A program made the position numbers and the translations under genes. This document shows positions 39,102-54,096 of a DNA stretch of 64,000 nucleotides, piece after piece. Source of the DNA: Phycisphaeraceae bacterium (GTDB taxonomy: Bacteria; Planctomycetota; Phycisphaerae; Phycisphaerales; SM1A02); NCBI GenBank assembly GCA_019636755.1, contig JAHBWZ010000005.1, forward strand, positions 186,001-250,000, read 5' to 3'. Every line of letters begins with the position of its first letter. Position 1 is the first letter of the stretch. The notes below the pieces were generated by a model, which had not been told where the DNA came from, made no database searches, and saw only the letters and a list, made by a program, of their open reading frames with translations.

Positions 39102-40328
39102 ATGCAATCGATTCGACTTCACGGTCTGTGTCTCGTCGGCGCCATGCTGTGCGCCTCGCCTGTGGCACTCGCGCAGCAGGATCGCGTGAGTTCCTCGGAG
39201 AAGGGATCGCTGCTCATCTGGTCGAAGATCGAGGTCGCCTACCAGGAGGACCAGCTCATCCAGGACACGTTCGTCAGCCTGACCAACGACTGGGCAACGG
39301 ACGTGGACTTCCAGCTCTACCTGATCCAGGGCGACAACACGAATCCGCTCGGATACTGGCAGTTCAGCGACGTCGGCTTCACGCTGACGCGCGATCAGCC
39401 CGTGTACTGGTCCGCCGCGACGGGCCAGGGTACCGCGGGCATCGGGATGACGCGGTGGTCGGACCTGGGGCCCGGCATCGTGATCGACGGCGTGACGTAC
39501 TACCGGGGCCTGATCATCGGCTGGGCCACGAGCATCCCGCAGGGGAACCGGCCGATCCGTCACAATCATCTCGCCGGGCACGGAACGGTCGTCAACTACG
39601 CGCAGGGATGGGCATTCGAATACAACACCTGGGCCTTCGCCGCGATCACGGGGACGCAGGGCGGCCTGATTCCGGTCACGCCCGACGCGGATGGTTCCGT
39701 CCAGCTTCGTATCGGGACCGATTACGCGCCGTCGTACAACCAGCTCCTGCTGAACTTCCAGGCGTGGGGATCGAGCGCGTGGAGCACGCCCGATTACCTG
39801 GTGGTGAGCGATACCGCGCTGACGCTGCATCCGGTGGACTGGGATCTCCGCGAGAACAGCGATGCGCCTCCGGTCATCACGAAGGCGCAGTTCGACGTCT
39901 GGAACGAGAACGAGGTCAAGTTCTCGGGTGCCTACAAGTGCATCGTCTGCTGGGATCAGTCCTTCCTGCGCACCTACGGCATTCCGAATCACTTCGGCGT
40001 CGGCTCGCTTCAGACCAACCACGGCAAGGCACGGATCGATGGTGTGGCGAGCCCGCTCTGCAACATGCAGGTCCCCGGGGTCCTCTCGGTCGCCACGTCG
40101 CTCCTGGGAATCTCTGAGCGGTATCTCGAGATCGGGATGCCGGGGGCCGGAGGCGGCACCCCGGCCCCGATGGGCGGCTACGCAGCGGCGGCGAGCAATC
40201 TCATCGGCATGGGAACGCAGCCGGGCCTGATCAGGTACTTCCCGGGCTCTGGACCGGATGAGGCGCCGGGATCGAACTCGCCTGCGACCAGCTTCGATCG
40301 TCTGCTCGAGTCCGCGCTGAAGCGGTGA
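39102..40328 (+). CDS. Secreted EKGSLL-domain protein (paralogue A)
   Basis: 408 residues. A signal peptide ends VALA (1-24); the mature protein starts QQDRVSSSEKGSLLIWSKIE. The whole remainder is one domain that recurs three more times in the next 12 kb. Landmarks: DTFVSLTND (55-63), RDQPVYWSAATG (97-108), RHNHLAG (153-159), EYNTWAF (173-179), FDVWNENEVKFSGAY (264-278), CIVCW (280-284), IPNHF (294-298), LQTNHGKARIDGVAS (303-317) and a C-terminus ATSFDRLLESALKR. The CxxC in CIVCW and the Asn-His pairs are invariant between copies and could bind metal or form a disulfide. No known catalytic motif. Roughly two-thirds identical to paralogue B by eye. Confidence 0.8.
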   Translation: MQSIRLHGLCLVGAMLCASPVALAQQDRVSSSEKGSLLIWSKIEVAYQEDQLIQDTFVSLTNDWATDVDFQLYLIQGDNTNPLGYWQFSDVGFTLTRDQPVYWSAATGQGTAGIGMTRWSDLGPGIVIDGVTYYRGLIIGWATSIPQGNRPIRHNHLAGHGTVVNYAQGWAFEYNTWAFAAITGTQGGLIPVTPDADGSVQLRIGTDYAPSYNQLLLNFQAWGSSAWSTPDYLVVSDTALTLHPVDWDLRENSDAPPVITKAQFDVWNENEVKFSGAYKCIVCWDQSFLRTYGIPNHFGVGSLQTNHGKARIDGVASPLCNMQVPGVLSVATSLLGISERYLEIGMPGAGGGTPAPMGGYAAAASNLIGMGTQPGLIRYFPGSGPDEAPGSNSPATSFDRLLESALKR

Positions 40329-40471
40329 GGCGGCACCGGCCGGGCTGCACCTTCTGATGACCGGGGCGGGGCGCCCTGCCCGGGTGCCTATCGGAGGCGC
40401 GTCGCGGTGACGGGACGTCTCGGGCGGCGGCGGGTGGATCCGCAGCGGCGTCGAGCGATGTTCATGACACG

Positions 40472-40498
40472 TCGGGACCGGCCTCTGGCCGGTCCCGA
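40472..40498 (+). terminator. Hairpin, probable terminator after paralogue A
   Basis: A 12-bp perfect stem, TCGGGACCGGCC / GGCCGGTCCCGA, closed by TCT. It lies 144 bp after the stop; no T tract follows, so it may need Rho. Confidence 0.55.
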
Positions 40499-40835
40499 TG
40501 CTTTCACGCGCGGGGTGCCCTCGCCTCCCGCCGGAACGCGGGTGGCCCGGCCGCCCCGCGCCGGGGCGGGGCCGGACTCCGGAGTCCCTGCGGGACCCAG
40601 GTCCCCGCTGCGCGGACCGGTGCATCCTGGTCGGCGACGCCCGGCAACGCCGCGGCGACTGGCGGGCGCCGCGCAGTCGCATGCGCCACCGGACGGCGAC
40701 CACGGCTGACCTCCCCGTTTCACCAGTCAGCCCAGTCCTGTGCGCGCGTCCGTGCACTGCGGCGGCAGACCCGGAACCGGGGCTCGGGTCACCCGCCGGG
40801 CGGCGCCTTTTTTCCTGGCAGGCGTCTTCAACCTA

Positions 40836-40863
40836 TTGCATTCACAGTGCTTACCTGTATTCT
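40836..40863 (+). promoter_or_regulatory. Sigma70-like promoter upstream of paralogue B
   Basis: TTGCAT, 16-nt spacer, TATTCT. The surrounding 40 bp are AT-rich for this genome. Start of transcription would be about 40870. Confidence 0.5.
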
Positions 40864-41009
40864 GGCGCCGGTGTGGAACGCTGCTGCGGACCCGGCATCG
40901 GCCGGCCGGACAGAGCGAGCCACATCGGGACGGCACCCGCCGGACCGGTTGGAGGTGAGGCTTCTGCAGATCGGGTGATGGACGATCCGGACAGATCCAC
41001 AGAGGGGGC

Positions 41010-41038
41010 TTCCGGTCCACACGCCTGACCAGTAGAAT
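41010..41038 (+). promoter_or_regulatory. Second candidate promoter upstream of paralogue B
   Basis: TTCCGG, 17-nt spacer, TAGAAT. The -35 is weak and the -10 good. It would give a leader of about 320 nt. Confidence 0.35.
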
Positions 41039-41347
41039 CGCCGGTTGTAGATGCAGGGGATTGAAAGATCAAGACTTACGATCAATCGGGGCGACTTCGG
41101 ACGGCGGTCGCGCTGCGCGGGGATTCGGGGCGTCACACCCCCGGCCGCGGGCATCGGACAGACACGCCGGACCTGGTCGCGACCGCACCGCGACGCGGTG
41201 CTGATGCGACTGGTCGTCCCCTGCACCACGAAGGCGCACCTCTCAGAACTCGGCAGTTTCGGACGTGCACTGGGCACGCCCGCTGAAGAACCACCCCGGG
41301 GGTTCGGTTCGATGGCTCGAAGGATCCCATCACTTCAACCCAGCTAC

Positions 41348-41354
41348 TAGGAGG
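41348..41354 (+). promoter_or_regulatory. Strong ribosome-binding site of secreted paralogue B
   Basis: TAGGAGGG (the core AGGAGG) about 9 nt before the ATG at 41364. Confidence 0.6.
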
Positions 41355-41363
41355 GAAATCGAA

Positions 41364-42554
41364 ATGGGACGCAATGCAATCATGGGACTCGCACTCGCCG
41401 GCGCCGTTGCCGGTCTGGTGAGCCCCGCGCTCGCTCAGCAGGACCGCGTCAGCTCGTCCGAGAAGGGCTCGCTGCTCGTCTGGTCGAAGATCGAGGTCAC
41501 GACCTACCAGGGTCATGTCGTCCAGGACACGTTCGTCAGCCTGACGAATGACTACCCGGAGGACGTCGCTTTCCAGATGTACTTCATCCAGGGCGACAAC
41601 ACCAACCCGCTCGGCTACTGGCAGGTCTCCGACGTCGGCATCGAGCTGACCCGCGACCAGCCCGTGTACTGGTCCGCCGCGACCGGTCTCGGCACGGTCA
41701 ACGTGACGCCGTGGACCGTGCTCGGCCCCGGCATCCCCGGCGACAACAACACCACGATCTACCGTGGCATGATCATCGGCTGGGCCGTTGATCGCGTGAA
41801 CAACACCCCGATCCGTCACAACCACCTCGCTGGCCAGGGCACCTGGGTGAGCTACGCCCGGAGCCGTGCCTTCGAGTACAACACCTACGCCTTCGCGGCG
41901 ATCCAGGGTGTTCAGGGCGGCGCGATCCCGGCGGCGGTTGGTCCGGATGGTTCGGTGACTCTCGCGATCGGCACGAACTACGCGCCGTCGTATGCTCAGC
42001 TTCTTCTCAACTTCCAGGCCACCGGCTCGTCCGCGTGGAGCTCCCCGGGATACATGGTGGTCAGCGACACCGATCTGACCCTCCACCCGATGGACTGGGA
42101 CCTCCGCGAGAACACCAGCGCCCGTCCGATCGTGACCAAGGCGCAGTTCGACGTGTGGAACGAGAACGAGGTCAAGTTCTCCGGCGCGTACCGCTGCATC
42201 ATCTGCTGGGACCAGACGCTCCTGAGCGATTACGGTATTCCGAATCACTTCAGCGTCGCTGCCCTGCAGACGAATCACGGCAAGGCCCGCATCGACGGCG
42301 TTGCCAGCCCGCTGTGTGACAACCTTCCGTACGGTGGCGACGTCTCCGTCGCGACCTCGCTCCTGGGCATCTCCGCCCGCATGCTCGAGATCGACGGCAA
42401 GTACGCCGCCGCCGCGAGCAATCTCGTCGGCATGGGCCAGGAGAACGCGACGATCCTGTACTTCCCCGGCAGCAACCCGCCGGATGAAGCGCCGAAGGCT
42501 TCCGCCCCGGCGACCTCCTTCGATCGGCTCCTCCAGAGCTTCTCGAAGCGGTGA
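41364..42554 (+). CDS. Secreted EKGSLL-domain protein (paralogue B, probably abundant)
   Basis: 396 residues. Signal peptide 1-24 (ending PALA), then QQDRVSSSEKGSLLVWSKIEV at the same positions as in paralogue A. It carries DTFVSLTNDYP, RHNHLAGQG, FDVWNENEVKFSGAYRC, CIICWD, IPNHF, NHGKARIDGVAS and the terminus FDRLLQSFSKR. Unlike its neighbours the gene favours C-ending pyrimidine codons and CGT/CGC for Arg and avoids CGG/CGA, the pattern expected of a highly expressed gene. Together with its strong ribosome-binding site, dedicated promoter and intrinsic terminator, this suggests a major secreted or surface protein. Biochemical role unknown. Confidence 0.82.
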   Translation: MGRNAIMGLALAGAVAGLVSPALAQQDRVSSSEKGSLLVWSKIEVTTYQGHVVQDTFVSLTNDYPEDVAFQMYFIQGDNTNPLGYWQVSDVGIELTRDQPVYWSAATGLGTVNVTPWTVLGPGIPGDNNTTIYRGMIIGWAVDRVNNTPIRHNHLAGQGTWVSYARSRAFEYNTYAFAAIQGVQGGAIPAAVGPDGSVTLAIGTNYAPSYAQLLLNFQATGSSAWSSPGYMVVSDTDLTLHPMDWDLRENTSARPIVTKAQFDVWNENEVKFSGAYRCIICWDQTLLSDYGIPNHFSVAALQTNHGKARIDGVASPLCDNLPYGGDVSVATSLLGISARMLEIDGKYAAAASNLVGMGQENATILYFPGSNPPDEAPKASAPATSFDRLLQSFSKR

Positions 42555-42643
42555 TCCCGCGATCCGGATATCCTCGCGTCCTCCCGGCGGCTGGTCCGCT
42601 CGGGATGGCGGGTAACGAGGAGTCCGGGATGATTCGACCCACG

Positions 42644-42678
42644 GGCGGCGGGGGTCACGACCCCCGCCGCCTCTTTCG
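42644..42678 (+). terminator. Intrinsic terminator after paralogue B
   Basis: Stem GGCGGCGGGGGT / ACCCCCGCCGCC (12 bp, 4-nt loop CACG) followed by TCTTTC. It ends the monocistronic unit of paralogue B. Confidence 0.75.
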
Positions 42679-42834
42679 ATACCATCAGGTTCAGCGCCTG
42701 CTCTTCGGAGCGATCCCCGGACAGACCGGCCGGCAGCGGGGATCGGCGAGGCGACCGGGGGGTTCCCCGACTCGCCATCGCGGCGCCCCAGGACACGCAC
42801 GGATGCGGCCCGCCGGCCGGACGAGGTGAGATTC

Positions 42835-43803
42835 GTGGTACGGACAGGGACAGGCCAGGGTCAGTCAGCGGTTCGGCCGCACGCGGCGATCGTCGGACAC
42901 GCGTCTCCGCGTCGTCCGGCTGCGGTGGTCGCCGCGGTGCTCTGCGCGCTGATCGGCGCGGGCATGGCTGGCGCGTCGCAGGGTCAGTCGGGGAACGCGG
43001 CCGGGGCGGGCGATGACGCCGCGCCCCCGAGACACGTCCTGCCGCCGCTTTCCGACTCGCTGGATGTTCCGATCGACGGGATAGAACCGGAGCCGGCCAC
43101 GCGCGAGCAGCTCCTGGTGCGCGCGAATGTACTCAACGCGGCGCGCCTGGCCGCGGACTACGCGACCCTGTGGGAGTTCCGGGACCTCCTCACCGTGGCG
43201 CACGTTTCCCGCGAGGAATTCATCGAGTGGAGCGTCGAGAACGACCCGTTCGTCTACGACGTCGCTGAGACGCAGGACGTGGCGGTCGACGGCCGCTGGG
43301 GCTGGGTCCGCGTAAGGGCGTCCATCGGGATGCGGCGTGCACCGTCGATCCCGCCTCGCACGATCGAACGATGGGAGCGATGGATCCACGTCTGCGGCCG
43401 CTGGCTCCCCGTCTCCGCGAAGGAGCAGGACAATGCGCCGCAGGCGCCCGCGGAGCGTGACCTCGCTCTCGAGCCGCTGCTCCAGGCGCGCTACGACGCG
43501 TGGTGGAAGGCGGTCGAGGCGCGCGACTGGCGCACGCTGTACGAAATGAGCGATCCCCTGGACCGCGAACAGGTGGATTTCGAGACGTTCGCGCGGGCGC
43601 GGAATCAGCTCACGTTCTTCGATCACCAGGTGCTGTGGCGCAACGCGTCGAGCGATTCCGGCATCGTCCGGGTCCGCTACCTGCTCAGGCTCAATGATCC
43701 GAACATGACCAAGATGCATCCGGTCGTCTCCATGGTGAACGAGCGCTGGGTCCGGCGCGATGGTCAGTGGTACCACCGCCTCCTCGGAGGAGCCGAGCGA
43801 TGA
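42835..43803 (+). CDS. Secreted protein of unknown function
   Basis: 322 residues. A signal-anchor-like segment (about 27-46, AAVVAAVLCALIGAGMAGAS) precedes a low-complexity region and two similar-looking alpha+beta units: one from ANVLNAARLAADYATLWEFRDLLT to WERWIHVCGRWLPV and one from ARYDAWWKAVEARDWRTLYEMSDP to NERWVRRDGQWYHRLLG. Each has a helical start and ends in a Trp-rich strand, reminiscent of NTF2-like domains. GTG 42835 is preferred since GAGGTGA lies just upstream. Its stop overlaps the ATG of the FG-GAP gene (ATGA). Confidence 0.55.
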   Translation: MVRTGTGQGQSAVRPHAAIVGHASPRRPAAVVAAVLCALIGAGMAGASQGQSGNAAGAGDDAAPPRHVLPPLSDSLDVPIDGIEPEPATREQLLVRANVLNAARLAADYATLWEFRDLLTVAHVSREEFIEWSVENDPFVYDVAETQDVAVDGRWGWVRVRASIGMRRAPSIPPRTIERWERWIHVCGRWLPVSAKEQDNAPQAPAERDLALEPLLQARYDAWWKAVEARDWRTLYEMSDPLDREQVDFETFARARNQLTFFDHQVLWRNASSDSGIVRVRYLLRLNDPNMTKMHPVVSMVNERWVRRDGQWYHRLLGGAER

Positions 43804-45278
43804 GCGCAGAGAAGAATCTCCTCCGCGGCGGACGCAGGCATTCCGGCGGGCGCCGTCTCCCTCTCGCGGCTGCCGGATTCGCGTGCCTCGCGCCGGCGGC
43901 GCTGGTGCTGAGTCAGTCCGGGGAGCGACCCTCGTCCGCGCCGATGGGCGCGGCGACGACGGCCGCAGGCGACGCGTCCGGCGCCGCGCGGCCCGCGCCG
44001 CGCCGCGCGATCCGGTTCGAACTCGCCTCAAGCGGGCTGCCGACGAGTGGTTCGGAGGGGATGTGGAAGTCCGACCCGGTTCTGGCGGACATCAACGGCA
44101 ATGGATTCGCGGACCTTGCGGCCCTGCCGAGGCTCGCAAAGGGTGCACGCGTCTGGACGGGCGACGGTGAAGGCAACTGGACCGACTCGTCGAACGGCCT
44201 GGCCGTTCCTCGGACGAGCTGCGGCGGCGGACTCGCGGTGGGCGACGTCAACGGTGACGGGAAGCCGGACCTGGTGGTCGGCGATCACTGCACGGGCATC
44301 TGGGTCTACCTGGGCGACGGCGCGGGAACGTGGACCGAGGTCACGGCCGCCATGTATCCGGTGGACCTGGTCGAGAAGCCGGGCGATGAACTCTCGGAGA
44401 AACTCGTGACCGGCGCCGAGGACATCGCGATCGGCGATGTCAACGGGGACGGCCACCTGGACATCCTGTCCGGCGGCAGCGACGAAGGCGGGCTCAATAT
44501 CTTCCTGAACGACGGAACCGGCCGGAACTGGACGCGGCAGGCCAGTTCGCTGATTTCGCGCGGCTGGGCCAACCGGGTCCTGCTCGTGGATGTCGACGGT
44601 GACGGACGGCTCGATGTGGTGGCCAGCCACTCGGACGGTCCGCTGGTCTACCTCAACGACGGACGCGGCGACTGGTTCTGGTCCGCGTCCGGGCTTCCGA
44701 CGCCGATGATGCAGGGGCTCTACCACGGCCTCGCGACCGGCGACATGGACGGCGACGGGAAACTCGACCTCGTCGTGGCCAACTGGGTGGATGGACCGGA
44801 GGTCTATTTCCAGCGCGAGCATGGCACCTGGCAGAAGGCGCCGGAGGTCTTTCCGGAGATGTTCGGTGGTGCCGTCGGCCTGGCGGTCGCGGATGTCGAT
44901 GGCGACGGACGCCTGGACATCGCGGTCAGCGGACGCCTGCAGCCCACGGGAGGCATGGTCCGAGGTCTCTTTCTCCTGCTCAACGAGGGGAACGGGTCCT
45001 GGCGGTGGGCGCGGGACACCGGCCTGCCTTCGACCGGGCTGATGCAGACTTCGGGCCTGTCGTTCGGAGACATCGATGGTGACGGCGTACCGGACCTGGC
45101 GGTCGGCAGCGGTCTGATCACGGAGACCGGTCCGCCGGGAGCATCCCGGGAACCCGTCATCGCACATCGACTGATGGTCTGGCGCGGCCGCCGTACAGCC
45201 GCGTCGGAGGACGGATCCGTGGCGGCGCCCGGCGCCGCCTCCGTGGACCGCGGAGGGAACGGGGAGAAGAAACAGTGA
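43800..45278 (+). CDS. FG-GAP/VCBS beta-propeller secreted protein
   Basis: 492 residues. A signal peptide (about 18-42) is followed by about seven repeats with calcium-binding D-x-D/N-G-D-G loops: DINGNGFADLA, DVNGDGKPDLVV, DVNGDGHLDIL, DVDGDGRLDVV, DMDGDGKLDLVV, DVDGDGRLDIAV, DIDGDGVPDLAV. This is the FG-GAP/VCBS propeller family found in integrin-like and adhesive extracellular proteins. Probably cell-surface or matrix attached. Translationally coupled to the preceding gene by ATGA overlap. Confidence 0.88.
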   Translation: MSAEKNLLRGGRRHSGGRRLPLAAAGFACLAPAALVLSQSGERPSSAPMGAATTAAGDASGAARPAPRRAIRFELASSGLPTSGSEGMWKSDPVLADINGNGFADLAALPRLAKGARVWTGDGEGNWTDSSNGLAVPRTSCGGGLAVGDVNGDGKPDLVVGDHCTGIWVYLGDGAGTWTEVTAAMYPVDLVEKPGDELSEKLVTGAEDIAIGDVNGDGHLDILSGGSDEGGLNIFLNDGTGRNWTRQASSLISRGWANRVLLVDVDGDGRLDVVASHSDGPLVYLNDGRGDWFWSASGLPTPMMQGLYHGLATGDMDGDGKLDLVVANWVDGPEVYFQREHGTWQKAPEVFPEMFGGAVGLAVADVDGDGRLDIAVSGRLQPTGGMVRGLFLLLNEGNGSWRWARDTGLPSTGLMQTSGLSFGDIDGDGVPDLAVGSGLITETGPPGASREPVIAHRLMVWRGRRTAASEDGSVAAPGAASVDRGGNGEKKQ

Positions 45279-45317
45279 TTCGGTGACGGCCGTCCGTGCC
45301 GGTCACGGCGGTCCGTC

Positions 45318-45370
45318 GGAGGGTGAGACTCGCGAGGTGAGATTCGCGAGGTGAGATTCGCGAGGTGAGA
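45318..45370 (+). repeat. Array of Shine-Dalgarno-like 14-bp repeats
   Basis: Tandem units of GAGGTGAGAyTCGC at 45334-45347 and 45348-45361, flanked by an imperfect copy from 45318 (GGAGGGTGAGAC) and a last partial copy at 45362-45370. The core GAGGTGA equals seven bases of the anti-anti-Shine-Dalgarno sequence; the true site GGAGGTGA at 45409-45416 lies four nt before the ATG at 45420. A similar GAGGTGAGATTCG at 42824 serves the gene at 42835. Confidence 0.6.
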
Positions 45371-45419
45371 TCGAGGTGCTCCGCCGTGCCCCGGCGGTGC
45401 GCCTTGCTGGAGGTGAGAC

Positions 45420-48400
45420 ATGCGGGGCGTTCATTGTCTGCTGCGCGCCGGTCGTTGCGCGCCCATCGGGATCCTGTGTCTTCTTGCGCTTGCCCTCCCG
45501 GCAGGTCGCGAGGCGTCGGCGACGGCGCTCACGATCAAGCCCGGCATGGACCTGGGGGCGCAGGGCCTGACGGTCCGAGTGTCCGGGACAGGCCTGGCTG
45601 CCTCGGGGAGCGGCGCGATCGCCTTTCCGCTGGTGAACGGGCCCGTGCGCCGGGCCGTTCTCTACTGGGGCGGCTCACATGCGACCGGCGGCGCACCGCA
45701 CGGGTCGCTCGTCATTGCCGGGACCACCGTCAACGGCGTGCTGACCGGGAGCGAGCCGGAAGGGACCACGACGTGGTACGCCTACCGCGCAGACGTGACG
45801 AACCTGGTCAAGGGCGCTGCACTGCCGGGAGGCGCCATTCCGCCGCTGCCGGTCAGCGACCCGCTCTTCGGTGATCCGATGGGCGCCCTCAACGGCGCAT
45901 CGATCGTCCTGTACCACATCGATCCGACCACGCCGTTCTTCTATCGCGCGCAGATCGCAGACGGCTGTGACTTCGCATGGGCGCCGAATCTTCCGGACGC
46001 GTCCGGCTCGGCGGCGCCGGTGACGTTCGCGTTCGATCCCGCGGCGATCCGGCGCCCGGCGGAACTCGGCATCGTCGTCGGCAACGCGAACAGCGTGCGG
46101 CGCGATCGGGTTGACATCTCCGACAACAAGCCGCTGATCGACGACTTCACGGGCGGGAACGGTGCGGCGTGGGATTCCATTCTCACCCAGATCCTGATTC
46201 CTGCTTCCGTGTCGCAGACAACGGTCACATCGGTGTCGCCGCCGCAGTACGGCGCGAACGCCGAGCGGTTCCAGCTGGTGGCGTATGCGTGGCGACTGAT
46301 CTGCGGTGGTCGGATCGGCGACTTCGTCTGGCAGGACCAGAACGGCAACGGTATCCAGGACCCGGGCGAGCCGGGGATCGCCGGCGTCCGCATCGAACTG
46401 TACATGCTCACGGACGAGGGCGAGGAGTACGTCATGGATGCCGTCTCCGACGGCACGGGCGAATACCTCTTCGAGGGCATCTGCGTCGGCACCTACATTC
46501 TCCGCGTCGACATGACGACGCTGCCGGCGGGCTTCGCACCGACGATCGACTTCGCCGGGAATGATCCGGCCCTCGACAGCAACTTCGACCCGGACGGCGT
46601 GACGATCGTTGTCCTGAATGATGACGGCGAGAGCAATCTCGACGTCGACCTCGGCCTCTGCTGCGGCATCACGATCCAGACCGGCGCGTGCTGCTTCTTC
46701 AACGGCGACTGCCAGCAGCTCTCCGAGTCGGCCTGCGGGCAGCTCGGAGGGACGTTCTTCGGAATCGGGACGCCCTGTGCGGCCATCAACTGCCCGCCGC
46801 TGGGCGCGTGCTGCCTGTTCGACGGATCCTGCCAGGAGATCGAGGCGGCCGACTGCGCCGCCCTCGGCGGGACCTACTCGGCCGGCGTGCGCTGTGACTC
46901 CGTGACCTGCCCGGCGCTCGGCGCGTGCTGCCTGTTCGACGGCACCTGCGATGTGACCGACAGCGCCATGTGCACCGTGCTCGGGGGGAGCTTCCAGGCG
47001 GGCGTGGACTGCGCGGGGATCGTCTGCCCGGCACTCGGCGCGTGCTGCCTGTTCGACGGATCCTGCGTGGAGGTCGAGGCGGCCGTCTGCGTGTCGCTCA
47101 GCGGGACCTACAGCCCGGGCATGCGCTGCGCCGAGGTCGTCTGTCCGGCGCTCGGTGCGTGCTGCCTGTTCGACGGCACCTGCATGGACCTGACTGCAGA
47201 GAACTGCATCGCGGCCGGCGGACAGGCATTCCTGCCGGGTGTGCCGTGCGAGCCCGGCCTCTGCACGTCGCTCGGATCGTGCTGTTTCTTCGACGGGAGC
47301 TGTCGGGAACTGACCGCGGCGGAGTGCCTTGACGAGGGTGGCGTGGACTTCCACCCAGGCGTCGCCTGCGGCGAAGCGAACTGCGCGGTGCTCGGTGCCT
47401 GCTGCCTGTTCGACGGCTCGTGCGTCGAGACGGACGCGACGGACTGCGCGGCGCAGGGCGGTACGTTCAACGCGGCGGTGCCGTGCGACCAGGTGTCGTG
47501 CCCGGTGCTCGGTGCCTGCTGCCTGTTCGACGGATCGTGCGTCGAGACGGACGCGACGGACTGCGCGGCCCAGGGCGGTACGTTCAACGCGGCGGTGCCG
47601 TGCGCTCAGGCGTCGTGCCCGGTGCTCGGTGCGTGCTGCCTCCAGGATGGGCAGTGCGTCGAAACCGATGCACCCGGGTGCACGGCCGCGGGAGGCACGT
47701 TCCAGCCTGGCCAGCCGTGCGCCGCGGTGGCGTGTCCGCAGCCTGGCGCATGCTGTCTCCCGGGTGGCCAGTGTGTCCAGTCGGTGCGCGCCGATGGCGC
47801 GGACTGCGTGGCCTCGGGCGGCACCTACCAGGGTGCCGGAACCACGTGCGCGCCGGGGCTCTGCCCGTCGGGACCGACCCGTCGCGTGCGCTCCGGCGAG
47901 AAGGGAAGCCTGCTCTGGTTCAGCAAGGTGGAGATCCGCTGGGACGCCTCGGGGCAGCTGGTGCGTGATACGTTCATCTCGCTGACCAACGACTACCCGT
48001 CCCCGGTGCGCGTGCTCATGTACTTCGTCAACGGTGACGAACCGCTTCCCGCCGCTCCCGGCGAGCGCGCTCATCCCGGCTGGAACTTCGTCGACAATGC
48101 CGTCGTGCTGACGAACGATCAGCCCGTCTGGTGGTCTGCCGCCAGCGGCCTCGGCACCCTGACCGGTCTCTCTCCGTTCACCGTGCTCGACCCGGGGACA
48201 CCACCCGGTCGGCCGGCCGGCGATGGAACGACCGATCGCGTGCTGCGCGGGTTCATCGTCGGCTGGGCGACGAATGCCACCGGCCGCTCGATTCACTGGA
48301 ACCATCTCTCCGGTGCGGCAACCGCGGTCGACCTGCGCGATTCGGCCGCCTGGGAGTACGGCGCGTGGGCGTTCCGCGCCGGGCCGTCCTTCCCGCATGG

Positions 48401-48995
48401 TTCCGTCATCGGAACGCCCGGACGACTCGACCTGGACGGCGAGACCTATGCGGCGGCCTGCGACACGCTGCTGCTGGGATTCCGGGCGCATGGCTCGGCG
48501 TCGTTCAGCGGGCCGAACGCGCTCGTCACGGCGGTCACGGAACTGACGCTGCATCCTGTCGATCTCGACCTGCGACTCAATCACGCGGAGGCGGCACCCG
48601 TGGCGACGACGGCCAGGTTCGATGTCTGGAATGAGAACGAGGTCAAGTTCTCCGGGGCGCACCGGTGCGTGACGTGCTGGGACTCCGCGTTCCTGGATGC
48701 CTACGCGATTCCGAATCACTTCCGGCTGAGCACGCTCCAGAGCGATGCCGGCAAGGCGCGGATCGCCGGGCGATCGGGGCCGCCCTGTCCTGACCTGCCG
48801 TGGCCGACACGCGACACGGCGCTGCTCGGCGTCTCGATGCGCCGTCTCGAGTTCTCGGCCGTCGAGCGGGACCTGGCGGGCGGCAATCTGCATGGCATGG
48901 GCGTTCGTGCTGCGGTGATCCGGTTCGACGCTGAGGCGCCTCCGCCCGAAGCGCCGGAGGCGGAGGGACAGGGAGAGCGAGGCAGATCGCGGTAG
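45420..48995 (+). CDS. Large secreted multidomain protein with SdrD-like, GACC-repeat and EKGSLL domains (paralogue C)
   Basis: 1191 residues in four parts. A signal peptide (about 14-36) leads into a beta-rich N-terminal domain (to about 295). An SdrD_B-like Ca-binding beta domain follows (about 297-420: GRIGDFVWQDQNGNGIQDPG, GEYLFEGICVGTYILRVD). Then come ten tandem cysteine repeats of about 40 residues (about 422-820), consensus GACCLFDGSCxExxxxxCxxxGGTyxxgxxCxxxxCPxL with six Cys each. The C-terminal EKGSLL domain (about 825-1191) carries EKGSLLWFSKVEIRW, HWNHLSG, FDVWNENEVKFSGAHRC and IPNHFRLSTLQSD. Repeats 7 and 8 are almost identical, showing recent duplication. Probably an extracellular stalk-and-head protein. 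Confidence 0.8.
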   Translation: MRGVHCLLRAGRCAPIGILCLLALALPAGREASATALTIKPGMDLGAQGLTVRVSGTGLAASGSGAIAFPLVNGPVRRAVLYWGGSHATGGAPHGSLVIAGTTVNGVLTGSEPEGTTTWYAYRADVTNLVKGAALPGGAIPPLPVSDPLFGDPMGALNGASIVLYHIDPTTPFFYRAQIADGCDFAWAPNLPDASGSAAPVTFAFDPAAIRRPAELGIVVGNANSVRRDRVDISDNKPLIDDFTGGNGAAWDSILTQILIPASVSQTTVTSVSPPQYGANAERFQLVAYAWRLICGGRIGDFVWQDQNGNGIQDPGEPGIAGVRIELYMLTDEGEEYVMDAVSDGTGEYLFEGICVGTYILRVDMTTLPAGFAPTIDFAGNDPALDSNFDPDGVTIVVLNDDGESNLDVDLGLCCGITIQTGACCFFNGDCQQLSESACGQLGGTFFGIGTPCAAINCPPLGACCLFDGSCQEIEAADCAALGGTYSAGVRCDSVTCPALGACCLFDGTCDVTDSAMCTVLGGSFQAGVDCAGIVCPALGACCLFDGSCVEVEAAVCVSLSGTYSPGMRCAEVVCPALGACCLFDGTCMDLTAENCIAAGGQAFLPGVPCEPGLCTSLGSCCFFDGSCRELTAAECLDEGGVDFHPGVACGEANCAVLGACCLFDGSCVETDATDCAAQGGTFNAAVPCDQVSCPVLGACCLFDGSCVETDATDCAAQGGTFNAAVPCAQASCPVLGACCLQDGQCVETDAPGCTAAGGTFQPGQPCAAVACPQPGACCLPGGQCVQSVRADGADCVASGGTYQGAGTTCAPGLCPSGPTRRVRSGEKGSLLWFSKVEIRWDASGQLVRDTFISLTNDYPSPVRVLMYFVNGDEPLPAAPGERAHPGWNFVDNAVVLTNDQPVWWSAASGLGTLTGLSPFTVLDPGTPPGRPAGDGTTDRVLRGFIVGWATNATGRSIHWNHLSGAATAVDLRDSAAWEYGAWAFRAGPSFPHGSVIGTPGRLDLDGETYAAACDTLLLGFRAHGSASFSGPNALVTAVTELTLHPVDLDLRLNHAEAAPVATTARFDVWNENEVKFSGAHRCVTCWDSAFLDAYAIPNHFRLSTLQSDAGKARIAGRSGPPCPDLPWPTRDTALLGVSMRRLEFSAVERDLAGGNLHGMGVRAAVIRFDAEAPPPEAPEAEGQGERGRSR
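46683..47880 (+). repeat. Ten tandem GACC cysteine-repeat units in paralogue C
   Basis: DNA encoding ten units of about 120 bp; six Cys codons each. Units 7 and 8 (around 47397-47640) are nearly identical at DNA level; the others have diverged. Confidence 0.75.
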
Positions 48996-49051
48996 TGCGC
49001 CGTCGGCGCGGATCCGCCCGGTCGTCGCCGCCCGTCGGAGGGGAGCGGCCC

Positions 49052-49086
49052 GGAGGCGGTCGGTTTCGACCGGTCGCCTCCCTTTC
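49052..49086 (+). terminator. Intrinsic terminator after paralogue C
   Basis: GGAGGCGGTCGGT / ACCGGTCGCCTCC pair over 13 positions with two G-T wobbles, closed by a TTCG tetraloop and followed by CTTTC. Confidence 0.7.
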
Positions 49087-49268
49087 ACGAGTGCGGCGCG
49101 CCGCCGGCGGCGCGCACGCCGGACCTGCGATGTCCGCGTCGTTTCCGGACGCGTGCGCACCGTTCCCGGACGGTTGCGCGCCGTTCCCGGACCGCGCGGC
49201 GTGAATTCACTGCGCAGACTGCGCGATCCTGCTCGCATCGCGCCGGACTCGCGGCATGGTTGATCCCG

Positions 49269-51728
49269 ATGATTGCCATGCCGACCCGCTCCGTGGTTCT
49301 CGGTGCATGGCTCGCGCTGTTGATCCTTCTTCCAGCGAGCCGCGCCATGGCTGCGCCATCGCTTGGCGCCTGCTGCCTGCCGGACGGCTCCTGTATCCGC
49401 GTCTCTCCGACCAGCTGCGACACCGTGGGCGGCGTGTTCCAGGGCTCCGGGACGACCTGCGACACGGTCGTCTGCCCGCAACCGCCGGGCGCGTGCTGCT
49501 GGCCGGACGGATCGTGCAGCGAACTTCCGAAAATCCCCTGCGAAGCGGGCGGCGGCACGTTCCGAGGGACGCTTGTTCCGTGCGCGTCGGTGGTCTGCAG
49601 TCCGGTCGTCGGCGCGTGCTGCCTGTCGGACGGCTCGTGCGTGGATGCGGTCACCGCGTCGGCGTGCACGGCGCAGGGCGGCGCGTGGCAGGGTTCGACG
49701 ACGACGTGTGCGGGGAGCGCCTGCCCGCAGCCGGTGGGCGCGTGCTGTCTGCCTGGCGGCAAGTGCATCCAGAGCGTCGAGGTGGCCTGCGTCCTCGGCG
49801 GAGGTGTCTTCGTCGGCACCGGCGTGCCGTGTGCGGCCGTCGTGTGCGCGAAGTCCCTCGGCGCCTGCTGCCTTGGTGACGGCAGGTGCATCGTGGCCAC
49901 TGAACTCGGCTGTGCCTCCAAGGGCGGTACATGGCAGGGACGGGACCGTGCATGCGAGCCGGCGCTCTGCGCGCTGCCGCCGCGCGGGTGCTGCCTGATC
50001 GACGGAAGTTGCGTGACGGTCGGTCCGGAGACCTGTGCCACGCTCGGAGGTGCCCCGGGCGCCGATCGTGAAGGCTGTGACGCGATCGACTGCCCGCAGC
50101 CCGCGGGCGCGTGCTGCCTGCCTGATGGCTCGTGTGCCGAGGAGATGGCAGAGTCCGGCTGCGTCGCCAAGGGCGGGACGTGGCAGGGGATGTTGACGAC
50201 GTGTGCCGGGACCGCGTGCCCGCAGCCGGTGGGTGCGTGCTGCCTGTCCGACGGCTCGTGCGTGGATGCGGTCACCGCGTCGACGTGCACGGCGCAGGGC
50301 GGCGCGTGGCAGGGGATGTCGACGACGTGTGCCGGGAGTGCGTGCCCGCAGCCGGTGGGCGCGTGCTGCCTGTCCGACGGTTCGTGCGTGGATGCGCTCA
50401 CGGCGTCGGCCTGCACGGCGCAGGGCGGCGCATGGCAGGGCGCGGCGACGTCCTGTGCAGGGACCGCGTGTCCGCAGCCGGCCGGTGCGTGCTGCCTGCC
50501 CGACGACGCCTGCGCGATGGTTGCCGATGCCGGCGCGTGCGACGCGATCGGCGGCGTCTTCGTGGCGGCGGGGACCCCGTGCGCGATGATCGACTGCACC
50601 GGCGTGGCGCGCGATCCGGACCCGACCCCGGTCCCGATCCGCCGCGGTACGTTCGGCGAAAAGGGAAGCCTTCTCGTGCTTCCGCTCGTCGAGGTCCGAT
50701 GGGATGACCAGGGACGAGTCATCACCGATACGCTGGTCATGCTCACCAACGACTACCCGGGCGACGTCGAGGTCCTCATGTACCTGGTCAACGGCGATCC
50801 GCCGCTGCCCGCAGACGGCATCAGCGGCGAGCGTGCGCACCCCGGCTGGAACTGGCTGGACAACGGGATCATCCTGACGCGCGATCAGCCGATCTGGTGG
50901 TCGGTGGCGACTGGCGCACCGCGCGGACTGTCGCCGTTCGAGGTGCTCGACCCCGGCATGCCGCCGGGACGTCCGGCGCCGCCCGGGGCCGGCGTGCTGC
51001 CGGGAGAGCGGATGATGCGCGGGTTCATCGTGCTGTTCGCCGTGAACGCGAGCGGTGAGGCGATCCGATGGAATCACCTGTCCGCATCCGTCGTGCAGGT
51101 CGACTACGCGCGGGCGGATGCGTGGGAGTACAGCGCGCTCGCGCATGCGGTGGTCGAGGATGCGCAGCCGAACGGCGCGCCGATCGGTGCCGACGGCGTG
51201 CTTCGCCTTGACGGCAGCATGTACACGGCGGGCTACGGGCAGCTGCTCCTCAACTTCACCGCGGCCGGATCCTCCGCGTTCAGCGGCATGGACCTGCTCA
51301 TCGCGGAGACGGGGCTGGTCCTGATGCCCCTGGACATCGACCTCGGCGACACCGGTCAGCCGGTCAGCACGATGGTCCGTTTCGATGTCTGGAACGAGAA
51401 CGAAACCAAGTTCAGCGGCGCCCGCCGGTGCGTGACCTGCTGGGAAATGCAGCTGCTCAGCAGGTATGCGGCGCCGAATCACTTCCGCGTCGAGCACATC
51501 CACACGGACTTCGGGAAGGCGAGACTGGACGCGGTCGCCTCGATCGAGTGCCCCGGAAGCGTGGCGGTGCCGCTGGCCGGACTGGCGCTGCGCCGGCTTG
51601 CGCCACCCGGCGAGCCCGGGTTCTCCGCCGGTTCGAACCTGGTCGGCATGGGCACACGTGCAGGGACCGTCCGATACAGGCCCGTGGGGCCGCCGCCGGA
51701 GGCGCCGGCGGGCCCGCCGGTGCCGTGA
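49269..51728 (+). CDS. Secreted GACC-repeat plus EKGSLL-domain protein (paralogue D)
   Basis: About 819 residues. A signal peptide (SVVLGAWLALLILLPASRAMA) leads straight into ten six-cysteine GACC repeats of about 40 residues (about 32-450), several with the variant GACCLSDGSCVDAVTAS. A hinge (PDPTPVPIRRGTFG) leads to the C-terminal EKGSLL domain: EKGSLLVLPLVEVRW, RWNHLSA, FDVWNENETKFSGARRC, CVTCW, APNHFRVEHI, FGKARLDAVAS. Unlike paralogue C it lacks the N-terminal beta and SdrD-like domains. Starts at ATG 49269 or 49278 are both acceptable; a TTG at 49260 is also in frame. The same domain order in C and D suggests duplication of a C-terminal module. Confidence 0.8.
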   Translation: MIAMPTRSVVLGAWLALLILLPASRAMAAPSLGACCLPDGSCIRVSPTSCDTVGGVFQGSGTTCDTVVCPQPPGACCWPDGSCSELPKIPCEAGGGTFRGTLVPCASVVCSPVVGACCLSDGSCVDAVTASACTAQGGAWQGSTTTCAGSACPQPVGACCLPGGKCIQSVEVACVLGGGVFVGTGVPCAAVVCAKSLGACCLGDGRCIVATELGCASKGGTWQGRDRACEPALCALPPRGCCLIDGSCVTVGPETCATLGGAPGADREGCDAIDCPQPAGACCLPDGSCAEEMAESGCVAKGGTWQGMLTTCAGTACPQPVGACCLSDGSCVDAVTASTCTAQGGAWQGMSTTCAGSACPQPVGACCLSDGSCVDALTASACTAQGGAWQGAATSCAGTACPQPAGACCLPDDACAMVADAGACDAIGGVFVAAGTPCAMIDCTGVARDPDPTPVPIRRGTFGEKGSLLVLPLVEVRWDDQGRVITDTLVMLTNDYPGDVEVLMYLVNGDPPLPADGISGERAHPGWNWLDNGIILTRDQPIWWSVATGAPRGLSPFEVLDPGMPPGRPAPPGAGVLPGERMMRGFIVLFAVNASGEAIRWNHLSASVVQVDYARADAWEYSALAHAVVEDAQPNGAPIGADGVLRLDGSMYTAGYGQLLLNFTAAGSSAFSGMDLLIAETGLVLMPLDIDLGDTGQPVSTMVRFDVWNENETKFSGARRCVTCWEMQLLSRYAAPNHFRVEHIHTDFGKARLDAVASIECPGSVAVPLAGLALRRLAPPGEPGFSAGSNLVGMGTRAGTVRYRPVGPPPEAPAGPPVP
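49353..50620 (+). repeat. Ten tandem GACC cysteine-repeat units in paralogue D
   Basis: Ten units of 40-42 codons. Units 3, 8 and 9 share long identical DNA stretches (GACCLSDGSCVDA type), indicating recent expansion. Confidence 0.75.
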
Positions 51729-51893
51729 AGCGCGTGAAACAGGCCGGAAGTGCTTGCCTGTGACGGATTTGCGGGTTCTATTGGGGGTCCCGTCGGCGCC
51801 GGGCGCCGGTCCGGGATGCGCGGGGTGTACGGGTGTCCAGATCCGGACGGAAGCCCGGAGTTCCCCGGGGTCACTGAGCGGCGATTCCTGAGA

Positions 51894-51901
51894 CGAGGAG
51901 G
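51894..51901 (+). promoter_or_regulatory. Ribosome-binding site of the beta-helix protein
   Basis: GACGAGGAGG about 10 nt before the ATG at 51912. Confidence 0.5.
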
Positions 51902-51911
51902 TTTCTTCATC

Positions 51912-52973
51912 ATGCGGTCCATCCGGTTCCTTGCAGCGCTGGCGATCGGTTCCGTCGCGGCGCAGGCGTCTGCGGCGACGATCCAGGTTCCCAGCCAGTT
52001 CTCCACGATCCAGGCGGCCATCAACGCGTCGGTGAACGGTGACGTCATCGTCGTGGCCCCGGGCACGTACGCAGAGGCGATCACGTTCGGCGGCAAGCGC
52101 GTCCACCTGCGCAGCAGCGACGGCGCGGCGGCGACGACCATCAACGCCCAGTCGCTTGGAAACGCCGTCGTCCGATTCGAGAACGCCGAGAACAACCAGG
52201 CGATCATCGAGGGATTCACGCTCCGTGGCGGCACCGGAAAGCCCGGTGCGGTGACACGAGGTGGCGGCATCTTCATCAGCGCAGCCACGCCGATCATCCG
52301 GTCCTGCATCATCCGCAACAACACCGCGGGACAGGGTGGCGGGATCTACGTCACGGATGCGCCCAGCGGCGTGCAGATCCAGAACACGATCATCGCGGTG
52401 AACTCCGCCAACTTCGGCGGCGGCCTGTACTGCGTGATCTCGAATCCATCGGTCAAGAACTGCACGATCGTCTCCAACAGCGCAGGCGAGGCGCTGGTCG
52501 GGACGCAGGGCGGGGGCTGGTACAACGGCAGCTTCGCGACCGGGCAGTGCATCAACTCGATCGTCTGGGGCAACTCGCCGGCAGGATTCGGCGGGTCCGC
52601 GAATCCGGTCACGCGGTACTCCAACGTGCAGGATGCCATCGCGGGCACCGGCAACATCAGCGCGAACCCGCTCTTCGTGAACTCGGGTGCACAGAACTAC
52701 CGGCTGCAGCCGGGATCGCCCTGCATCGACGCGGGAGACAGCAGCGAGGTCGCGAGCGTGCTCTTCAAGGACATCGAGGGCGGGCAGCGCGGCGTCGACG
52801 ATCCGGCCAAGGTCGACACCGGCGTGGCCGTGTTCGGCCTGGTCGTGGACATGGGTGCCTATGAGCGGCAGGTGGCCGTGCAGAGCAGCTGCCCGGGCGA
52901 CCTCAGCGGCGACGGGAGCGTCGGCTTCGACGACCTGCTGCAGCTGCTCAGCCTCTGGGGCAACTGCCCCTGA
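51912..52973 (+). CDS. Secreted right-handed beta-helix protein with dockerin-like tail
   Basis: 353 residues. Signal peptide ending ASAA (1-21). The fold is a parallel beta-helix of the pectate-lyase-like type: TIQVPSQFSTIQAAINASVNGDVIVVAPGTYAEAI, then many short xxIxNNTAxxGGGIY turns, closing with GSPCIDAGDSS and VDMGAYER. The tail CPGDLSGDGSVGFDDLLQLLSLWG is a dockerin-like calcium repeat. No lyase catalytic residues stand out. The module closing with GSPCIDAGD is common in planctomycete secreted proteins. Confidence 0.85.
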   Translation: MRSIRFLAALAIGSVAAQASAATIQVPSQFSTIQAAINASVNGDVIVVAPGTYAEAITFGGKRVHLRSSDGAAATTINAQSLGNAVVRFENAENNQAIIEGFTLRGGTGKPGAVTRGGGIFISAATPIIRSCIIRNNTAGQGGGIYVTDAPSGVQIQNTIIAVNSANFGGGLYCVISNPSVKNCTIVSNSAGEALVGTQGGGWYNGSFATGQCINSIVWGNSPAGFGGSANPVTRYSNVQDAIAGTGNISANPLFVNSGAQNYRLQPGSPCIDAGDSSEVASVLFKDIEGGQRGVDDPAKVDTGVAVFGLVVDMGAYERQVAVQSSCPGDLSGDGSVGFDDLLQLLSLWGNCP

Positions 52974-52997
52974 GTCCGTGACCTGCATCGGCGATGA

Positions 52998-53036
52998 GGA
53001 CGGGCCCGCGCGGGCAGATTCCGCGCGGGCCCGTCC
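52998..53036. terminator. Bidirectional terminator hairpin
   Basis: A perfect 16-bp stem (GGACGGGCCCGCGCGG / CCGCGCGGGCCCGTCC) with a 7-nt loop between the convergent ends of the beta-helix gene and the ferredoxin reductase. No T tract on either side. Confidence 0.65.
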
Positions 53037-53082
53037 CCTGCGCGCGCGTGCATGCGCCAGCGGGCGCAGGCGAGTCGGGTGC

Positions 53083-54096
53083 TCAGTACACCTCGACCAT
53101 GCAGCGGGCGCTCGGGCGGACGCGCCGACGGATCTCCGCGTCGTCCCAGTCGGCGCATGCGGCCGGCGGGACGCCGGCGGCTCCGTCGCTTCCGGCGGTG
53201 CCGCGGATCTCGACGTACGCATCCGCGCACCCGAGCCGCGCGAGCGTCCTGAACACGCCGACCTGCATGCCCGCCAGTCCGCACATGTAGATGAGCGTGG
53301 TGCCGGCGCGCAGGGAGGCGGCCAGTGCCGCATCGTGTTCGACACGACGGGCGAGCAGGGCGTCAAGGTAGACACCGCGCGTGAAGCCCGGGCTCGGCTG
53401 CCGGCTCAGCGCCACGTGATACCCGAAGGCGGGCATCGTCCGCGCGGCGTCGACGAAGAAGTCGTCGTAGAGCAGGTCCGTCTCGTACGCGACGCCCATG
53501 AGCAGGTCGATCCGTCGGGCGGCGGCGGGTCCGGCGCGAAGTTCCATCAGCATGCCGCGGAACGGCGCGATGCCGGTCCCGGTGGCGAGGAAGAGGTAGT
53601 CCCAGGACTCCGGTGACTCCGGCAGCAGGAAGCCGCGCCCGTTCGGTCCGGAGACCATGATCTCGTCGCCGGAGCGCCGATCGCAGAGCCAGTTCGAGCA
53701 GACGCCGAGGTACAGGCGATGGTCGTCCGGATCGTCGCCGGGCCGCTGCGGCCGGCGCTCATCGATCAGGCGCTTCGGCGTCGTCGTGAGAATGCATCCG
53801 GCCCCGTCCTCACCGGTCGACGGCGAGGCGATCGAGTACAGCCGGACGGCGTGCCGCCTGCCCTGCGCGTCGAGGCCCGGCGGAACGATGCCGAAGGACT
53901 GGCCGGCACGGAACGCGCCGGCCAGCGGCGTTCCCGTCACGTCGATCGCGACGTGTCGGACGAAGGAAGCGGACTTGCCGCGCAGGCAGAGCGTCGACGC
54001 ATGCACGATCGCCGCGACCGGCGCGGTCGGCTTCACGAGATTCATGGCGACGGTCGGCAGCACCGGCGTCGGGAAGCGTTGATCCTGGGCGGTCAT
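53083..54096 (-). CDS. Plant-type ferredoxin-NADP+ reductase
   Basis: 337 residues. FAD-binding motif RLYSIAS (85-91), the cyano/plastid-type GVCSNWLCD (131-139), NADP-binding GTGIAPFRG (173-181), YMCGLAGM (270-277) and the C-terminal aromatic VEVY (334-337), where a stacked Tyr ends the chain as in plastidic enzymes. Exchanges electrons between NADPH and ferredoxin or flavodoxin. The N-terminal 25 residues lack a targeting signal. ATG 54096 follows a TATCAT -10 element at 7 nt, so the mRNA is probably leaderless. Confidence 0.9.
   Translation of the reverse strand: MTAQDQRFPTPVLPTVAMNLVKPTAPVAAIVHASTLCLRGKSASFVRHVAIDVTGTPLAGAFRAGQSFGIVPPGLDAQGRRHAVRLYSIASPSTGEDGAGCILTTTPKRLIDERRPQRPGDDPDDHRLYLGVCSNWLCDRRSGDEIMVSGPNGRGFLLPESPESWDYLFLATGTGIAPFRGMLMELRAGPAAARRIDLLMGVAYETDLLYDDFFVDAARTMPAFGYHVALSRQPSPGFTRGVYLDALLARRVEHDAALAASLRAGTTLIYMCGLAGMQVGVFRTLARLGCADAYVEIRGTAGSDGAAGVPPAACADWDDAEIRRRVRPSARCMVEVY

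Follow-up and report, generated by a model that had tools for sequence, protein, structure and literature searches.

An unnamed, recurrently permuted C-terminal domain family of secreted planctomycete proteins with a possible role in surface attachment

Four window genes and their shared domain

The DNA analysed was a 64,000-nt stretch of a Phycisphaeraceae bacterium genome, referred to below as the window, and all positions are window coordinates (Table 1). Four open reading frames, designated paralogues A to D, were present at the positions and in the order given in an earlier note on this DNA, and their products had one domain of about 360 residues in common. Over about 370 residues, the identity to B was 72% for A, 47% for C and 47% for D, and the HMM scores of the shared domain (617-667 bits) were far beyond chance. 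The landmark motifs listed in the note recurred in the same order. EKGSLL, DTx(V/I)xLTND, NHL, FDVWNENE(V/T)KFSGA, CxxCW and (I/A)PNHF were found in all four copies, but GKAR(I/L)D was exact in A, B and D only, since C reads GKARIAG there. As the note had described, A and B contained the domain only, C and D carried it C-terminal to six-cysteine arrays, and Sec-type signal peptides were assigned to all four proteins by a crude rule. Its description of a secreted family without a named domain was also upheld: the domain and its remote relatives (see below) had no match in Pfam, NCBIfam or PDB sequences, and the profile search that it had proposed found no domain with established function in Pfam or NCBIfam. 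The domain likewise had no match in a plasmid collection.

Table 1. Coordinates of the four paralogues and their parts in the window
Feature	Position	Strand	Description
Paralogue A	39102..40328	+	408 aa; Sec-type signal peptide (39102-39173) and domain only
Domain copy in A	39180..40289	+	Profile model 1-358
Paralogue B	41364..42554	+	396 aa; signal peptide (41364-41435) and domain only; modelled with AlphaFold2
Half D1, domain of B	41439..42104	+	TM1070 (ASRT/ASRAH) likeness assigned by exclusion; holds Asn37
Half D2, domain of B	42105..42473	+	Contains FDVWNENEVKFSG, CxxCW, PNHF and GKARID; Cys253 and Cys293 (probable disulfide)
Paralogue C	45420..48995	+	1191 aa; signal peptide, N-terminal region, SdrD_B, Cys array, domain
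SdrD_B domain in C	46311..46658	+	Pfam, PF17210
Cys-rich repeat array in C	46683..47870	+	10 units, six Cys each
Domain copy in C	47880..48977	+
Paralogue D	49269..51728	+	Start codon ATG 49269 (819 aa) or TTG 49260 (822 aa); signal peptide, Cys array, domain
Cys-rich repeat array in D	49365..50600	+
Domain copy in D	50640..51725	+

Three further features of the window lie near these genes. An FG-GAP repeat protein (PF13517; 43767-45278), probably also extracellular, is encoded between B and C. Downstream of D, the product of 51750-52973 resembles a dockerin at its C-terminus (CPGDLSGDGSVGFDDLLQLL) and contains a signal-like segment; it had no Pfam match at 0.001. A 2566-codon open frame on the minus strand opposite C and D (45675-53375) most likely results from GC-rich repeats and does not represent a gene.

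The array units of C and D are 38-44 residues long with six Cys each, and this repeat had no match in Pfam. The six-Cys unit (GACCxxDGSC...) gave 89 matches in this genome (G000; contigs C2, C14, C15, C16 and C17), and about half of the array proteins of this genome were without the shared domain. A search of 25 genomes found the repeat in 16, and the domain was absent from nearly all of them. These results indicated that the six-Cys unit is a module separate from the shared domain.

Spread, C-terminal placement and permutation of the domain

The earlier note had described a four-member family. This count was right for the window but not for the genome, in which we found 13 domain carriers on seven contigs. 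The genome- and phylum-wide extent, the C-terminal placement, the circular permutants and the resemblance to TM1070 had escaped that note. The domain was present in 4 of 41 genomes (this genome and 40 relatives), with 7 to about 25 copies each, as counted from match rows that include split pieces. In a class-level sample it was found in 18 of 397 genomes, belonging to three families, and a phylum-wide profile search gave weak matches in 12 further genomes. Two paralogues in this genome (L038:6164-8029 and L039:4776-6560) have an extra insert of about 140 residues between model positions 22 and 25, which lie in the domain's first hairpin.

The phylum-wide search led to a remote planctomycete family of secreted proteins (loci L069-L096), which was compared with the window family by hhalign. 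Judged by sequence, the weakly matching proteins form a remote branch of the superfamily to which the window domain belongs, because the alignment covered 264 columns with a probability of 99.9% and an E value of 4.6e-32. The landmarks GSLLVYP, TNT, NWLIG, YNDNEExFSA, CW and GWARIDG of the remote family match those of the window family, but its domain is shorter (about 300 residues) and has lost the His of NHL. No Pfam or NCBIfam model matched the remote branch either. The window domain represents a real, unnamed and expanded domain family.

Ninety carriers were complete at the 3' end, and in 88 of these the domain ended within 50 residues of the C-terminus, the exceptions being L103 and L118. 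When only carriers with at least 200 aa before the domain were considered, 47 of 48 ended within 50 residues after it. The N-terminal partners were unrelated to one another and comprised HYR, PKD, DUF11/DUF7507, SdrD_B, VWA and IgGFc_binding domains, peptidases of the M64, M28 (with PA) and C39_2 types, and Cys arrays; the Pfam scan of this cargo covered 30 carriers, with 25 families shown. Partners of these kinds are typically extracellular. A signal peptide was assigned by a simple rule to 57 of 77 carriers. Such an arrangement, with a single module following many different cargoes, is what an attachment or a sorting domain would show.

The secreted peptidases with the domain were encoded at L138:5512-8562 (minus strand; M64, assigned by reading its sequence), L118:694-4089 (minus strand; M28 and PA, with the domain not at the protein end) and L152:358-3441 (plus strand; C39_2). 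The protein ends were also compared. A and B both end in SFDRLLxSxxKR, and the tails differ across the family; a conserved C-terminal tail as a sorting signal was ruled out, as the tails are not conserved.

Seventeen proteins from 11 genomes were circular permutants, in which the domain was complete and the order of its parts was swapped, with three cut points. In nine proteins (from G019, G678 and G746) the cut lay near model position 60, so that approximately model positions 62-357 were followed by 2-60. One protein of this genome (C12:419645-420991) had positions 91-357 followed by 7-105, and seven proteins from seven genomes had 238-357 followed by 2-232. Truncated reading frames or assembly errors were ruled out as the cause: the permutants stop at or soon after the cut, no remainder of the domain follows the stop codon, and the pieces are complementary. 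G019 and G746 contain tandem double domains (L051 and L122), which are the expected intermediate of permutation.

The permutants were placed on a tree of 93 domains, which was built by a quick tree search. The 232-type proteins formed one group with a support of 99. The 60-type required five changes, at least three of them forced by well-supported branches, and some of the changes may be reversals; all permutations taken jointly required seven changes. The remote branch contained one further permutant (L072:1060-3420, minus strand), cut at the corresponding loop and located behind a DCNxDGxPD repeat array. Because there are three cut points, at least three separate permutation events would be needed, and the number is probably six or more. 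The polypeptide C-terminus differs between the permuted forms, which excludes a linear C-terminal signal as the conserved function and points to a folded surface.

Conserved residues and predicted structure

Conservation was counted over 93 domains in the numbering of mature B. The nearly invariant residues were Gly10-Ser11, Asn37-Asp38, Asn128-His129-Leu130, Asp221, Asn241, Glu244, Gly281 and Arg284. Cys253 and Cys293 were both present in 90 of the 93 domains and both missing in the other three, and never occurred one without the other. Cys256, the second Cys of the CxxC motif, was missing in 24 of the 90 domains that have this pair, and the His of PNHF was present in only 52 of 93. The suggestion of the earlier note that the CxxC and Asn-His residues form a metal site was not borne out by these losses. 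Since Cys253 and Cys293 co-vary while Cys256 varies, the pattern speaks for a disulfide and against a metal or redox site. The simplest reading of the alignment is a bond between Cys253 and Cys293, which is likely and would lock D2.

The structure prediction of B that the earlier note had proposed was performed with AlphaFold2 on 19 aligned homologues. The model was all beta, with a pLDDT of 84.2 and a pTM of 0.85. When the full model was compared with the PDB using Foldseek, TM1070 (1nc7) was the one confident match (probability 1.00, TM 0.67 to the target, E 7e-4), and the remaining matches were many low-TM two-sandwich proteins. No confident match was obtained in a viral structure library. 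D2 modelled alone reached a pLDDT of 77 and had no confident fold match; 1nc7 was absent among the matches listed for it, and weak ASRT matches covered 47 columns. By exclusion, the TM1070 match is therefore probably located on D1. Profile-profile comparison of D1 with D2 revealed no internal duplication.

The ASRAH domains, to which TM1070 belongs, have an eight-stranded beta-sandwich fold. They are defined by a Trp at strand 1 and a near-absolute Asn that ends strand 2 (De Souza and colleagues, PMC2739507). They are predicted to bind sugars in a cleft, and dyads and tetrads occur (PMC2739507). In the B model, Asn37 ends strand 2, and it was present in 92 of 93 domains, so the signature Asn is present. 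The strand-1 Trp was not conserved, position 15 being F in 40, Y in 21, L in 13 and W in 11 of the 93 domains. By sequence, ASRT (PF07100) gave no Pfam match at E<=10 and an hhalign probability below 1%, and homology to ASRT was not confirmed, the profile-profile comparison not being significant. Since the Asn is shared, the Trp is not and the profile comparison fails, we describe the domain as one that may work like an ASRAH domain, not as a member of that group.

Proposed role and comparison with known systems

We propose that secreted proteins use the domain as a folded attachment module at their C-terminus, tolerant of permutation and most likely glycan-binding via D1, and we give this proposal about an even chance of being correct. 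The homology, the C-terminal placement, the varied cargo, the paired cysteines, the permutation and the predicted beta fold are established. From these we infer a location outside the cell, attachment and a sugar ligand, with a glycan as the probable candidate. The Sec signal peptide would take the protein out of the cytoplasm, and the N-terminal part, which may be a Cys-rich stalk, a HYR/PKD/DUF11/SdrD_B stalk or a peptidase, would provide cargo or reach. The C-terminal beta module of D1 and D2, with D2 probably locked by Cys253-Cys293, would then fix the protein to the envelope or the extracellular matrix, most likely by binding of surface glycans on D1, whose predicted fold probably resembles that of TM1070, an ASRAH domain. 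A, B and other copies that stand alone would serve as components of a coat or matrix. Lineage-specific expansion is common among surface proteins, and the expansion of this family on the domain tree was counted as support for a surface role.

Counting against the attachment reading, a sorting domain would also be expected to lie almost strictly at the C-terminus after unrelated cargo, which here includes peptidases. The domain would then direct proteins to a dedicated outer-membrane secretion system, as type IX CTDs do, and be cut off or attached afterwards. This is unlikely: the domain has about 360 residues, stands alone in many copies and has no conserved tail, and a linear C-terminal signal could not be read in the 17 permuted proteins. 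In addition, no type IX CTD model of Pfam or NCBIfam matched the four window proteins. A further reading extends the metal site of the note to an exported enzyme or a metal protein whose ligands are the CxxC and Asn-His residues, and draws on the strong conservation of CxxCW and NHL in the four window copies. It is very improbable, as the second CxxC Cys and the PNHF His (lacking in 41 of 93) are often lost, no catalytic or metal constellation is conserved among the 93 domains, and Foldseek found no matching enzyme fold.

Another reading is a structural role in the wall, and C and D may be suggested as candidates for a wall or coat. The family would then provide the building blocks of a disulfide-rich wall or coat of Phycisphaerae, with a self-assembling domain and cross-linking Cys arrays, as a counterpart of the YTV proteins of Planctomycetales. 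The six Cys per roughly 40 residues in the arrays and the many paralogues are consistent with this, and planctomycete walls have been described as proteinaceous with disulfides, with YTV proteins confined to Planctomycetales (PMC8567305, PMC2754498). However, the arrays occur in only a minority of domain carriers and also in genomes without the domain, and a domain present in 4 of 41 genomes is no universal wall part. We regard this explanation as unlikely. The Pfam matches listed for the four window proteins, and the 25 families shown in the scan of 30 carriers, included no YTV domain.

Returning to the attachment module, a broader formulation is possible rather than probable: the unnamed Planctomycetota superfamily may be a widely reused folded C-terminal anchor that was permuted repeatedly through tandem intermediates, since only the folded surface would matter for attachment. 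If the proposal is true, the sharing of one C-terminal module by stalks, peptidases and adhesin-like proteins would open a route to the surface proteome of planctomycetes outside Planctomycetales, whose surface is unusual, and would allow its prediction from sequence. Three natural cut points, with tandem beside permuted forms in one genome, also provide a test case for the origin of permutation and for fold tolerance.

Three known systems were compared with the window domain. ASRT/ASRAH (PF07100; TM1070, PDB 1nc7) is probably similar in the predicted fold of one half and shares the near-invariant strand-2 Asn, and ASRAH domains are also found as secreted dyads that are predicted sugar binders (PMC2739507). 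In contrast to ASRAH, the window domain is without significant sequence similarity, strand-1 Trp or SHEshChhN motif, is three times larger, and has a D1-D2 arrangement with a probable disulfide. The YTV wall proteins are likewise Cys-rich repeat proteins of the planctomycete envelope, but their repeat differs from the window arrays and they belong to a different class of the phylum. The C-terminal targeting domains (type IX CTD, LPXTG, PEP-CTERM and dockerin) resemble the window domain in that many unrelated cargoes precede a single C-terminal module, whereas the window domain has no linear motif, is much larger, tolerates permutation and also occurs alone.
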